Virus record (IMG/VR): IMGVR_UViG_3300048592_000110
Span: 1-23,778 of that record
Reading direction: 5' to 3' (one strand)
Origin: a virus
Length of the DNA stretch: 23,778 bases
Shown here: piece by piece, positions 17,855 to 23,778 of the stretch
Layout of the letters: each line of letters begins with the position of its first letter
Position numbering within the stretch: position 1 is the stretch's first letter
Notes under the pieces: generated by a model
Told to the model about the DNA's origin: nothing
Database searches by the model: none
The model's input: only the letters and a program-made list of their open reading frames with translations
Made by a program: the position numbers and the translations under genes

Positions 17855-18243
17855 CAGGACGACTCCCCTGCCAGGTCGCGGTCGAGCATGACCCGGATCG
17901 TTGAGATGGGCGTCGCGATCTCGCCGGAGTGCTCGATCTGCTGGCGGTCGCCGTAGACCTCGCGGCGGTGGGACTTGAGCATGAAGATCGCGGCGGTGGT
18001 GTCGTTCTTCAGGCCACGGGTGACGAGGGCGTCCTCAAGGGCGTCGAGCCCCTCCTCCCGGGCGGTGAGGACGTCGGCGTCGAACTCCGGTTCGTCGTGC
18101 CGCCAGCTGTAGAAGGCGAACCGGGAAATCTTGGCCTTCCGGCAGGCAGCGGAGAACGACGGCCGCTCTCGCAGCGCCGCCAGGATCGCTTGCCGCTTTT
18201 CAGGTGTGCGGATTGTGATATTTGCCACGAATGCGACCAACAC
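17854..18243 (-). CDS. terS: Terminase small subunit-like DNA-binding protein
   Basis: This protein of up to 129 residues lies directly upstream of the large subunit gene. TPEKRQAILAALRERPSFSA followed by ACRKAKISRFAFYSWRHDEP is a helix-turn-helix of the kind found in small terminases that recognise the packaging site. EGLDALEDALVTRGLKNDTTA and IFMLKSHRREVYGDRQQIEH are family-like C-terminal elements. No ATG is available. The frame can start at GTG 18241-18243 or, more naturally, at GTG 18226-18228 (V-A-N-I-T-I-R-T). Neither has a strong ribosome-binding site, and an intrinsic terminator ends only bases upstream. Confidence 0.82.
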   Translation of the reverse strand: MLVAFVANITIRTPEKRQAILAALRERPSFSAACRKAKISRFAFYSWRHDEPEFDADVLTAREEGLDALEDALVTRGLKNDTTAAIFMLKSHRREVYGDRQQIEHSGEIATPISTIRVMLDRDLAGESS

Positions 18244-18244
18244 G

Positions 18245-18290
18245 AAAAAGCCGCCGCCGAACCGTGGTTGCCCACGATCACAGCGACGGC
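18245..18290 (-). terminator. Rho-independent terminator between early and late modules
   Basis: On the minus strand GCCGTCGC (18283-18290) pairs with GCGGCGGC (18250-18257). An inner stem, GATCGTGG with CCACGGTT, closes on a GCAA tetraloop. The stem is followed at once by TTTTT (18245-18249). It would end transcripts from the right-hand operon just before the small terminase gene. On the plus strand there is no following T-run, so it works in one direction. Confidence 0.75.
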
Positions 18291-18306
18291 CTCAAGCATC
18301 CGTCAA
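18277..18306 (-). promoter_or_regulatory. Possible late promoter overlapping the terminator
   Basis: TTGACG (18301-18306) and TGTGAT (18277-18282) lie 18 bases apart on the minus strand and match the sigma70 boxes at 5 of 6 and 4 of 6 positions. Transcription would begin near 18270, inside the hairpin. Such RNAs would lack the 5' arm and escape termination. The match is modest. Confidence 0.3.
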
Positions 18307-20502: not shown

Positions 20503-20633
20503 CGTCGCCGGTCCTTTCGCTCGTGCTCGCGCTTGCTCTCGACCGCCGCGGTCATCACGCTGACGGCGAGCAGGATGCCGATCACGGCGGCGAGTAGCTT
20601 CACCAGGCCCCAGGCCATGTCGAGTTCGATCAC
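20499..20633 (-). CDS. Small single-span membrane protein (44 aa)
   Basis: The frame begins MIELDMAWGLVKLLAAVIGI from a GTG and continues through one hydrophobic span (about residues 7-30) to a highly basic tail (ESKREHERKDRRR). GGGAGG lies six bases before the start. Both ends overlap neighbours as GTGA, so the frame is embedded in the operon's coupling. The span and charged C-terminus suggest an inner-membrane anchor. It could be a holin-like protein, but no endolysin is nearby. Confidence 0.7.
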   Translation of the reverse strand: MIELDMAWGLVKLLAAVIGILLAVSVMTAAVESKREHERKDRRR

Positions 20634-21037
20634 AAGGCACCTCCCGCAAGTTCGAGTTGGCCCGTGGTTTCGAGGCGTCGCCGGCGACGCCTCGCCGCCT
20701 GCACCTCCAGGTGGTGTTCGCGGTCGTGGTTGAGATGGCAGCGTTGGCAGAGCGCGAACAGGTGCCCGGGGTCGATGCAGGCCGTGTTCTGGCAGGCGTG
20801 GGCCGTCGTGAGCACGATCCGGATGATGCGGGGGTACTCACCGTCGAAGAGGGCGTACCCGACGTCGCTGTTCATCGACTCGATGTCATCCTCGGTGTGC
20901 CACTCGCCGTGGCGATCGCGCGCGCCGAACGACCCGTTCGGCACCCTGCACCACTCGCAGCAGTTGCCGGCCTGATCGAGGATCTGACGCCGGATGTCTG
21001 GCCACGATGGGTGGTAGTCGACAGCGTTGAACGTCAT
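20630..21037 (-). CDS. HNH-type endonuclease
   Basis: The chosen start, ATG at 21035-21037, overlaps the upstream stop (ATGA) and has AAAGGA eight bases before, giving 135 residues. CCEWCRVPNGSFG near residues 26-38 provides the first zinc pair. IVLTTAHACQNTACIDPGHL then LFALCQRCHLNHDREHH gives the HNH core with the second cysteine pair and the final His-Asp. This resembles phage HNH proteins described as nucleases. The first catalytic position reads TTAHA rather than the more usual VxHLDHD, so activity is uncertain. The C-terminus has an Arg run (RRRRRRLETT). Confidence 0.82.
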   Translation of the reverse strand: MTFNAVDYHPSWPDIRRQILDQAGNCCEWCRVPNGSFGARDRHGEWHTEDDIESMNSDVGYALFDGEYPRIIRIVLTTAHACQNTACIDPGHLFALCQRCHLNHDREHHLEVQAARRRRRRLETTGQLELAGGAL

Positions 21038-21150
21038 TCCTCCCGTCCTTTCAGCCGCATGGCGGCCCACACGTACAGCAGCCCGGACACGATCGACACG
21101 CCGGTCCAGAGCCCGGCCCCAATCAGCACGATCCGCAGCCAGTCAGGCAT
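21034..21150 (-). CDS. Small single-span membrane protein (38 aa)
   Basis: The frame reads MPDWLRIVLIGAGLWTGVSI, then VSGLLYVWAAMRLKGREE, with one hydrophobic span over about residues 6-30 and a basic end. Its stop overlaps the HNH start (ATGA), and its ATG lies just inside the end of the GreA-like gene. Like the 44-residue protein downstream it flanks the HNH gene. Function unknown; a holin-like or membrane-anchor role is possible. Confidence 0.65.
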   Translation of the reverse strand: MPDWLRIVLIGAGLWTGVSIVSGLLYVWAAMRLKGREE

Positions 21151-21394
21151 GACGCACCCCTTCCACGGTGATCGTCTTCGGCCCGAACCCGGTCTCGACG
21201 GTCACCACGTCGCCGGGCATGTGCCCCATCACCGCGCGGGCGATCGGAGCCGTCTCCGGCATCAGCTGGTCATGGGCATCCCGGACACTGACCGCGACGG
21301 CCCGCAGGAACGCCTCGTCGGTCACGATCCGGCGGGTGAAGCGGCGGTCGAGGGGCAGCTCGCGCCAGGTGACAACGCTGTGCAGGGCGATCAC
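21143..21394 (-). CDS. GreA/GreB C-terminal (FKBP-like) domain protein
   Basis: This 83-residue protein matches only the C-terminal half of the GreA/GreB transcript-cleavage factors. RFTRRIVTDEAFL near residues 18-30 corresponds to the early strand of that domain. ETAPIARAVMGHMPGDVVTV then ETGFGPKTITVEGV (about 47-80) matches the family's S-P-I-A-R...G...D-V-V...T-x-x-G pattern. The N-terminal coiled coil, which enters the RNA polymerase channel, is absent. The GTG start overlaps the previous stop (GTGA). It could bind RNA polymerase without the cleavage activity, perhaps competing with host Gre factors; this is inference. Confidence 0.72.
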   Translation of the reverse strand: MIALHSVVTWRELPLDRRFTRRIVTDEAFLRAVAVSVRDAHDQLMPETAPIARAVMGHMPGDVVTVETGFGPKTITVEGVRHA

Positions 21395-21762
21395 GGGGTC
21401 ACCGCCGATCCGAAGAGGTCCAGCTGGGACACGCCAGAACGAATCTCTGCGGCGATCTCGGCGAGCTTGAACCGGGCGGCGAGCTCATTGCCGTCGGCAT
21501 CCCAGATGACGATGCCGATCTCGCCCGCCTTGATGCGCAGGAGGGGCGGCACGGATTCCTCGTACAGCGGCTTCGCGAGGAAGCGCGACCACAGCGCGCC
21601 CTCTGGCATGCAGGTGTAGGAGTAGCCAGGCGAGCCAGGGACGATCGGGCTACCTCCACCCATCCAGCGCCTGGTGATGTCCTCCGGTGGATCGCCTCGC
21701 TCGATGTAGGGGCGAATAAGTTCGCGCGCCTTGGCCCGCGCCATGTCGATCGTGACGGTCAT
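21391..21762 (-). CDS. Unknown protein (123 aa)
   Basis: The ATG at 21760-21762 overlaps the LuxR-type gene's stop (ATGA). The N-terminus (MTVTIDMARAKARELIRPYI) is a basic amphipathic helix. The middle is Gly/Pro/Ser-rich (GGGSPIVPGSPGYSY). The C-terminal half (IKAGEIGIVIWDADGNEL) looks like a small alpha/beta fold. No family is recognised. Confidence 0.65.
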   Translation of the reverse strand: MTVTIDMARAKARELIRPYIERGDPPEDITRRWMGGGSPIVPGSPGYSYTCMPEGALWSRFLAKPLYEESVPPLLRIKAGEIGIVIWDADGNELAARFKLAEIAAEIRSGVSQLDLFGSAVTP

Positions 21763-21977
21763 GGCTGCACCTCGAACGTCACCCACCCGCGTCGGACCGC
21801 CGTCAGGATCAACTCCACGCGGTTCCGGGTGCCGGTGGCCTGCATGAGGCGCTCAACATGCGCCTTGACGGTGTGAGGGCTGATGCCGAGGTCGTAGGCG
21901 ATCTCCGAATTGGTTTTCACTTCGCAGAGCGCCCGCAGCACGTCCCACTGGCGCGGCGTGAACTCGGGGATAGTCAT
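21759..21977 (-). CDS. Stand-alone LuxR-type HTH protein
   Basis: This 72-residue protein is little more than a GerE/LuxR-type DNA-binding domain. FTPRQWDVLRALCEVKTNSE, then IAYDLGISPHTVKAHVERLM, then GTRNRVELILTAVRRGWV covers the whole four-helix domain. No receiver or ligand domain precedes it. The ATG at 21975-21977 is chosen because it overlaps the upstream stop (ATGA); an upstream ATG is less likely. Its target may be the phage's own promoters. Confidence 0.85.
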   Translation of the reverse strand: MTIPEFTPRQWDVLRALCEVKTNSEIAYDLGISPHTVKAHVERLMQATGTRNRVELILTAVRRGWVTFEVQP

Positions 21978-22210
21978 GGCTGCATCGCCTGCCACTTCCC
22001 GTAGCCCTGGTGGACGGCGTTGTCGGCGCCGGCCGTGCAGGTGGTCTGGCAGACGATCCGTCGGCTGTTGGGGGCGTAGATTCGCATCCGGATCGATCCG
22101 TCAGGCAACCGGTCGAGCATGATCCCGAGCCTCGCGCCGCGGATTTCCGCGAGCTGCTCCCGCGCCGTGTCGGACAGGGTGCGCTCATCGATGACGGGAT
22201 ACTTGTTCAT
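21974..22210 (-). CDS. Unknown protein (78 aa)
   Basis: It begins MNKYPVIDERTLSDTAREQL. The middle (ARLGIMLDRLPDGSIRMRIY) suggests two beta strands, and two Cys residues (IVCQTTCTAG) lie near residue 55. The start overlaps the previous stop (ATGA). No family is recognised; the frame is supported by its place in the coupled operon. Confidence 0.65.
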   Translation of the reverse strand: MNKYPVIDERTLSDTAREQLAEIRGARLGIMLDRLPDGSIRMRIYAPNSRRIVCQTTCTAGADNAVHQGYGKWQAMQP

Positions 22211-22959
22211 CCCCGCCTCCCGTTCTTCCAGCTATCCCGGATCGGAATCGCCTGCACCCGGGGCAGGCAGACGGCGAGCAGCTCGGCCATGGCCGGGTGC
22301 GGCACCCGCCGCCGACCGACCGGCTCGCCGATCAGGAACCCGTTGGTCGCGAGCACCACGATGGCGTAGCGGTCGCAGGCCGCCCGGGTTGGTTTCTTGA
22401 TCTCGCCGCGCTCCCATTTGAGCAGGTTACCGAGGGACGTGTCCGTGAGCCGGGCGATCTCGGTTTTGGTCAGTCCCCGCCGGCGCAGCAGCAGGATCGA
22501 CTCCTGGAGGTACCGGCGGCGCTCGGCGAACACCCGGGCCTGCTGCCGGCGCTTCGCTGCAGTGCGCCGCTCGATCTCCGCCAGCGCCCGCTCGTAGTCG
22601 CGCATCTTCCGGGCGTAGCGTTCGCGATCGATCTCTCGCGTGCAGGGCACGCAGTAGCTCCACAACTTGCCCGGCCGCGACGGGTGCCGCCGGAAGTCCT
22701 CCACCGGCCGGTAGTGCTTGCAGTGGTTGCACCAGCAGTCGCCGCGGGCGTTGAACCGCGTGTGCCGGACAGGTGCGCCCTGGCGGCGGCGGTTGCGAGC
22801 CTGCTGGTCGCTCACGCAGCGCCGGCAGACGCGCCGGCGGTGACGCTCGTCGCCGTGGAAGTTCGCCGCTGGCTGCGGGCGATGGCAGGCGGTGCAGGTC
22901 CGGACCTCGCCCGGGCTGGGGGCGTCTGAGGCCGGAATGACCGTGATCGTGAAGCCCAT
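22207..22959 (-). CDS. Zinc-finger and HTH protein (250 aa)
   Basis: The first 100 residues carry two treble-clef-like zinc fingers: CTACHRPQPAANFHGD closing with CRRC, and CNHCKHYRPVEDF closing with CVPC. A basic coiled-coil-like region follows (YARKMRDYERALAEIERRTA to about 150). Residues 155-200 form an XRE-like helix-turn-helix (LRRRGLTKTEIARLTDTSLG, then NLLKWERGEIKKPT). The ATG at 22957-22959 has GGAGG seven bases upstream. The zinc fingers resemble those of HNH proteins, but no HNH catalytic core is present, so this looks like a DNA-binding regulator. Confidence 0.8.
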   Translation of the reverse strand: MGFTITVIPASDAPSPGEVRTCTACHRPQPAANFHGDERHRRRVCRRCVSDQQARNRRRQGAPVRHTRFNARGDCWCNHCKHYRPVEDFRRHPSRPGKLWSYCVPCTREIDRERYARKMRDYERALAEIERRTAAKRRQQARVFAERRRYLQESILLLRRRGLTKTEIARLTDTSLGNLLKWERGEIKKPTRAACDRYAIVVLATNGFLIGEPVGRRRVPHPAMAELLAVCLPRVQAIPIRDSWKNGRRG

Positions 22960-22974
22960 CACACTGCCTCCCGT

Positions 22975-23319
22975 TCAGCGAGCCGAGCCTGGAGCTCGTC
23001 CACAAGGGACGGCATCCGGGTGCCGGATGCCGATGATGGTCTGGCGGTACACGCGCGGGTCATCGTGGCTGGTCGCCTCGGGGCACACCTGATAGATCAG
23101 CCGGTTCTCCGTGTCCGGAAGGAGCAGGCCCTTGTCGAACTCGGTAAAGACTGGCTTCGCGCCTCGCATGCCCCATCGCCAGAACGTCATCACCTCGCAT
23201 TGGCCCCACCGTGAGTGGCGCGCCTGCAAGCTGATGGACTGGATGCTCCGCTCTCCCCACCACGACCAGGGCCCGGGTGTCGCAGCTGCGGCGCGCCTGC
23301 GGATTGCAGCGAGGTCCAT
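22975..23319 (-). CDS. Unknown phage protein with ATPGPW motif
   Basis: This 114-residue protein begins MDLAAIRRRAAAATPGPWSW. The AATPGPW motif after an N-terminal helix is familiar from many small phage early-region proteins of unknown role. The rest is Trp- and Arg-rich with no catalytic pattern. The ATG at 23317-23319 overlaps the HNH gene's stop (TGATG). Confidence 0.7.
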   Translation of the reverse strand: MDLAAIRRRAAAATPGPWSWWGERSIQSISLQARHSRWGQCEVMTFWRWGMRGAKPVFTEFDKGLLLPDTENRLIYQVCPEATSHDDPRVYRQTIIGIRHPDAVPCGRAPGSAR

Positions 23320-23778
23320 CACACCGAGCCTCCGAACGGCGTCACGCCAAAGCCCGGAAGCCCGGCTTGCTCGAACGTGTCCTTCGCCAACCAGGCAACC
23401 AGGGAAAGGTCAGACTTGTCGCGATTGCACGGGAAGCACGAGGGGACGATGTTTTCCGGGGTGTGCGCCCCCCCTTGGCTCAGGGGAATGACGTGATCCT
23501 GTTGGAGGCTGACATCGGATCGGTTGCAGTACGCGCAGCAATGACCAAAGTAGTCGAGCAGACGAGCCCAGTCGTCAGCGGAGAAATCCACGACCGGAAC
23601 GCCCATCTCCCGCGCTCGCCACGAGGATCGATATGCAGCCATCTGGTCAGGGTGAGCGGCGGCGTAGGCGCGACTCGCCTCGCGCTCCCGGTCGCGATTT
23701 TCCGAGTACCGGTCTCGCCTTCGGGCCTTGACCATCTCGGCACTCGCCGCGTAGCGGGCAGTGTCATAGGCACGCTTG
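23319..23778 (-). CDS. HNH endonuclease, 5' end outside the window
   Basis: The frame is open to the right edge, so the N-terminus is missing. An internal ATG at 23733-23735 exists, but the upstream in-frame residues (KRAYDTARYAASAEM) continue the same basic, Tyr-containing pattern, so the true start is probably beyond the window. The HNH core reads HCCAYCNRSDVSLQQDHVIP then LSQGGAHTPENIVPSCFPCN, with both cysteine pairs, the Asp-His and the final Asn all intact. The motif ends RDKSD. It may take part in DNA packaging or genome processing, as phage HNH proteins often do, although it is not next to the terminase here. Confidence 0.88.
   Translation of the reverse strand, partial: KRAYDTARYAASAEMVKARRRDRYSENRDREREASRAYAAAHPDQMAAYRSSWRAREMGVPVVDFSADDWARLLDYFGHCCAYCNRSDVSLQQDHVIPLSQGGAHTPENIVPSCFPCNRDKSDLSLVAWLAKDTFEQAGLPGFGVTPFGGSV

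Follow-up and report, generated by a model that had tools for sequence, protein, structure and literature searches.

A small phage protein that consists of a Gre-type C-terminal domain without the coiled coil

Genomic setting of the gene

What could a phage do with the globular domain of a Gre factor when the coiled coil of GreA and GreB is missing? The question is raised by a short gene in the window, the stretch of 23,778 nucleotides analyzed here, which we assign by sequence to a tailed phage, as phage records contain matches to its portal and to its terminase large subunit. A series of small minus-strand genes sits upstream of the terminase genes and includes an open reading frame of 83 amino acids at positions 21143 to 21394 that starts with GTG. 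Its frame measures just 113 residues from stop to stop, and its G+C content by codon position (0.73/0.48/0.89) is similar to that of the neighboring genes. The GTG shares bases with the stop of the upstream gene (21391 to 21786, minus strand), as GTGA, suggesting from the sequence that the two are translationally coupled. That upstream gene, characterized by its open reading frame and by family searches, matched no family, and no viral relatives of it were found.

Two genes upstream of the Gre-type gene, at positions 21759 to 21995 (minus strand), is a stand-alone LuxR/GerE-type helix-turn-helix protein (PF00196, E = 8.7e-16; phrog_3282, annotated as "sigma factor," E = 5.9e-13), which has 78 amino acids and no receiver domain. 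Downstream lies an HNH endonuclease-like gene (20630 to 21037, minus strand, start taken at an ATG; phrog_1571, E = 2.2e-13), and the same run of small genes contains another HNH-like protein (23319 to 23735, minus strand), a VRR-NUC protein, and an HTH protein. A minus-strand gene at 22207 to 22962 codes for 251 amino acids with a cysteine-rich endonuclease VII/HNH-like part and a C-terminal Cro-type HTH-like part, and a probable membrane protein of 38 residues (MPDWLRIVLIGAGLW...; 21037 to 21150, minus strand) overlaps the end of the Gre-type gene. Rfam gave no match in the window.

Domain assignment and modelled structure

The protein matches the FKBP-like C-terminal globular domain of GreA/GreB (PF01272) with 29.1 bits against a curated cutoff of 26.9 (E = 9.5e-7), its residues 3 to 80 aligning with positions 7 to 75 of the 77 in the Pfam profile. 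NCBIfam models of Gre and Rnk-like proteins matched residues 26 to 82 weakly and far under their cutoffs, and with 23.8 bits against a cutoff of 126 for PRK05892, the protein does not classify as an Rnk-like nucleoside diphosphate kinase regulator. We also built a separate hidden Markov model (HMM) from 18 bacterial Gre C-terminal domains, to which the protein scored 43.2 bits; the best of about 4,500 shuffled sequences reached 9.4 bits, and the runner-up among 383 six-frame fragments of the window reached only 3.4 bits. As the loci behind this model came from an alignment that contained the query, it is the Pfam score that is free of bias.

The signal is uneven along the protein. Residues 37 to 83 (21146 to 21286, minus strand), which include the Gre motif (APIARAVMGHMPGD) and the last two strands, are the best-conserved part and yield 41.2 of the 43.2 bits when scored alone. 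Residues 1 to 36 (21287 to 21394, minus strand) hold the weakly conserved first strands and the beginning of a stretch of about 10 extra residues that GreA lacks, located just ahead of the docking motif. Taken alone, this first half (residues 1 to 36 or 1 to 44) scores about 4.0 to 4.6 bits, a value reached by 7 of 5,000 shuffles, and when it was shuffled inside the whole protein, 55 of 5,000 sequences scored as well, so its contribution is small yet above chance.

AlphaFold2, when given the alignment of the 18 Gre C-terminal domains, produced a model with a pLDDT of 90.9 and a pTM of 0.76, with the lowest-pLDDT block at residues 31 to 40. The main caveat is that the model depends on this alignment of cellular Gre proteins, as prediction from the single sequence fails (pLDDT of 48.7, unusable). 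The modelled fold is that of Escherichia coli GreA residues 85 to 158 (Z of 11.3, 68 residues, rmsd of 1.5), in agreement with the preliminary description, for which a different fold would have been fatal. The top matches are GreA, Gfh1, GreB, Rnk, and a Nitrosomonas Gre-like protein; GreA structures overall give a Z of 11 to 12, and the C-terminal domains of GreA, Gfh1, GreB, and Rnk superpose over 68 to 74 residues with a Z of 8.5 to 12.2. The next match is the Gre-like globular domain of Bacillus subtilis HelD (Z of 7.4), which lies near general FKBP-like proteins. In a viral structure library, the model had no match at an E value of 0.001 or less.

A chance resemblance with no Gre homology would fit the weak matches to single known Gre proteins (best E of 0.07, in the PDB). 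It is already disfavored, and we regard it as scarcely credible, given that the curated Pfam cutoff is exceeded, that the HMM score lies so far above the shuffle maximum, and that the fold agrees over the full length.

Absence of the coiled coil

The N-terminal coiled coil of GreA and GreB (PF03449, GreA_GreB_N), with its two acidic tip residues, was found nowhere in the window, even at E values up to 10. As the frame itself is limited to 113 codons, the protein is a C-terminal domain alone, and the proposal of the preliminary description that it is such a domain, lacking the coiled coil, is borne out on both counts. We also considered a gre gene split in two, which is ruled out by the absence of any PF03449 from the window. 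With neither coiled coil nor acidic tip, the phage protein is not expected to stimulate transcript cleavage in the manner of Gre factors.

This sets the protein apart from the known factors it resembles. GreA and GreB share its motif and modelled fold, but they carry the coiled coil and the acidic tip and lack the insertion of the phage protein and its proline at the position of S121. The inhibitory Gre homologs Gfh1 of Thermus and Rv3788 of Mycobacterium tuberculosis have a Gre-type C-terminal domain in common with it, and Gfh1 is among its best structural and sequence matches, but both retain a coiled coil that works in the channel. Rnk of E. coli, a secondary-channel competitor without Gre activity, and the Nitrosomonas europaea protein 2pn0 are likewise small Gre-type proteins, but they have a short N-terminal part (solved chains of 121 to 135 residues), whereas the phage protein is the domain only. 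Phage TraR homologs (lambda Orf73, P2 Orf82) are also small secondary-channel binders that adjust host transcription, but they do so with a DksA-type zinc-finger fold and a channel-entering helix, a domain unrelated to the phage Gre domain, which contains no cysteine and hence no C4 zinc finger. Last, the N-terminal region of HelD places a Gre-like globular domain on RNA polymerase, but there the domain belongs to a motor protein of 770 amino acids with a long coiled coil.

Rarity among phages and bacteria

No stand-alone relatives were found in 50,697 phage records (tblastn, E of 0.01), where the only match at E values up to 10 was a full-length GreA (E of 5), nor in 72,556 plasmids. All eight Gre proteins from phage records that we read were full length (154 to 188 amino acids); among these entries are several unverified ones, which may stem from contaminating bacterial DNA. 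When 2.9 million viral contigs were scanned by pattern, using the protein by itself and two alignments, nothing related to the query turned up. The scan works, as judged from a positive control with other Gre C-terminal domains, yet it is limited by the patterns; the control retrieved five viral contigs, all coding for a GreA of 157 to 158 amino acids, with the PF03449 coiled coil present in all four of those tested. Four of these GreA proteins were near-identical across several metagenomes. The Salicola phage SCTP-2 and the five contigs do carry a PF01272-type domain, but within full-length GreA-like proteins (154 to 158 amino acids).

The same holds for bacteria. Among 120 genomes, 60 from each of two phyla, all 174 PF01272 matches fell in frames of at least 138 amino acids (63 matches in frames of at least 157 amino acids in one phylum and 111 in frames of at least 138 in the other). 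A genome scan yielded 34 loci, and the 30 of them that were read contained only full-length Gre proteins. No close relatives were found in 141 genomes of one bacterial phylum, in a search run without a positive control. The phage closest by terminase, a viral record with 83% identity, has no PF01272 protein, and synteny searches through the upstream gene, the HNH gene, and the terminase revealed no further gene of this type. The 83-residue protein is a real, unusual phage protein made only of the Gre C-terminal domain.

Residues that bear on polymerase docking

Gre factors contact the beta' rim helices of RNA polymerase through their globular domains (PMC7527559). Four positions that are invariant across the 18 aligned relatives (P125, R128, G132, and D137 in E. 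coli GreA numbering) are retained in the phage protein as P50, R53, G57, and D62, and the motif P-I-A-R-A-x-x-G is intact. Two neighboring positions differ. P46 aligns with E. coli GreA S121, where the substitution S121P reduces RNA polymerase binding (PMC7527559). A49 aligns with S124, the serine before the proline; the S124L mutant of E. coli GreA still binds the polymerase and loses activity (PMC7527559), and S127E in MtbGre abolishes binding (PMC3132773), S127 being, as placed by its mutagenic primer, the same serine preceding the proline. An alanine occurs naturally at this position in 2 of the 18 aligned relatives. In addition, both GreA domains seem to be needed for specific polymerase binding in E. 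coli, where the overexpressed C-terminal domain alone is neither toxic nor lethal (PMC7527559). The earlier claim that the polymerase-docking domain is retained holds by homology, but docking itself is uncertain, given P46 and the apparent need for both domains; judged from these residues, it is plausible and far from assured.

The main rival to a docking role is that docking has been lost, so that the protein is either an FKBP-like binding module for some other phage or host protein or the decaying, functionless remnant of a gre gene taken from a host. P46, the insertion directly before the docking motif, the weak first half, the lack of relatives in phage records, plasmids, and viral contigs, and the absence of the gene from the phage nearest by terminase all fit this explanation. 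However, the intact motif, the retained invariant positions, and a frame that is open, coding-like in its codon composition, and overlapping the upstream stop speak against it. We consider loss of docking or decay possible, at something like one chance in three.

The hairpin upstream of terS

The preliminary description placed a terminator near position 18245, with the Gre-type gene ahead of it in the operon, and this arrangement was confirmed. Direct folding reveals a terminator-like hairpin at 18247 to 18293 (minus strand; -35 kcal/mol, z of -4.1) with a TTTTT tract at its foot (18249 to 18245), directly upstream of terS; the promoter and terminator scan omitted it, probably due to its bulge. 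The first possible start of terS is at 18243, just past the hairpin, so a late promoter cannot fit between the two, and transcription from upstream has to cross the hairpin to reach terS. To be transcribed, the late genes require that the hairpin be read through or leak, or that a promoter lie upstream of it, and some read-through or leakiness at this site is likely. All the open reading frames read as genes between the Gre-type gene and the hairpin are on the minus strand.

It was also suggested that the Gre-type protein is linked to late transcription, that is, that it promotes read-through of this hairpin and so enables transcription of the late genes. The strength of the hairpin, its position adjoining terS, which leaves no space for a promoter between them, and the place of the gene ahead of it in gene order are in keeping with such a role. 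Nevertheless, the hairpin lies downstream at a distance of about 2.9 kb, or roughly nine genes, and an upstream position is common to every gene there, about ten in all, with none singled out. Gre factors act on backtracked complexes, and we know of no Gre C-terminal domain with antitermination activity. The suggested link found no support, and we consider this role very improbable.

Proposed role

The presence of the domain suggests that the phage may employ it to take up the docking site on the host RNA polymerase. Our preferred reading, to which we give a probability of roughly 0.4, is that the protein binds the host enzyme at its beta' rim helices and excludes Gre-type factors; a block on host Gre factors, as put forward in the preliminary description, is thus the most favored mechanism, though a hypothetical one. 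The gene product would then be a minimal secondary-channel factor without the coiled coil, sitting through its Gre-type domain on the rim helices, where the channel opens, and inserting nothing into it. The competitors displaced would be those with the same kind of docking domain (GreA or GreB, Rnk or Rv3788-like proteins, and possibly HelD), and the outcome would be a modest retuning of the host polymerase while the phage grows. What we observe is the domain, the fold that it takes when modelled with relatives, the missing coiled coil, and a site among co-directional small genes ahead of the terminase genes; we infer expression, polymerase binding, competition, and a benefit to the phage.

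Rv3788 and GreA compete for RNA polymerase (PMC4598747), and Rnk is a competitor of Gre factors and DksA (PMC9239242). Phages do employ small proteins that target the secondary channel: the polymerase is bound by lambda Orf73 and by four further TraR homologs from phages, and Orf73 increases burst size (PMC9239242). The above-cutoff PF01272 match, the 43-bit profile score, the superposition, the kept residues, and the lone GerE-type HTH protein in the operon count for a docking role, and the nontoxic E. coli domain, the two-domain requirement, P46, A49, and the alignment-dependent model count against it. No close relative was found that would point to conserved selection.

The nearby HTH protein raises the further alternative of an adaptor, in which the Gre-type domain, anchored on the polymerase, would recruit a neighbor (the GerE-type HTH protein or the product of the overlapping upstream gene) and so direct the enzyme to phage promoters. 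The GTGA overlap and the lone HTH protein nearby would suit such a partnership, and HelD provides a case of a Gre-like globular domain fused to other activities (PMC7749165). However, no conserved gene pair was seen, the upstream neighbor has no viral relatives, and the records carrying homologs of the HNH gene have no PF01272, so we find an adaptor improbable.

A bolder reading, which we consider unlikely, is that the phage has evolved this coiled-coil-free domain to cap the secondary channel of RNA polymerase from outside, perhaps together with the adjacent lone HTH protein. We found no description of an outside-capping polymerase modulator of this type in the literature consulted. Should the phage protein bind, it would be the smallest of the Gre-type factors compared here and a natural test case for whether docking by itself, with nothing inserted into the channel, suffices to exclude Gre-type factors.
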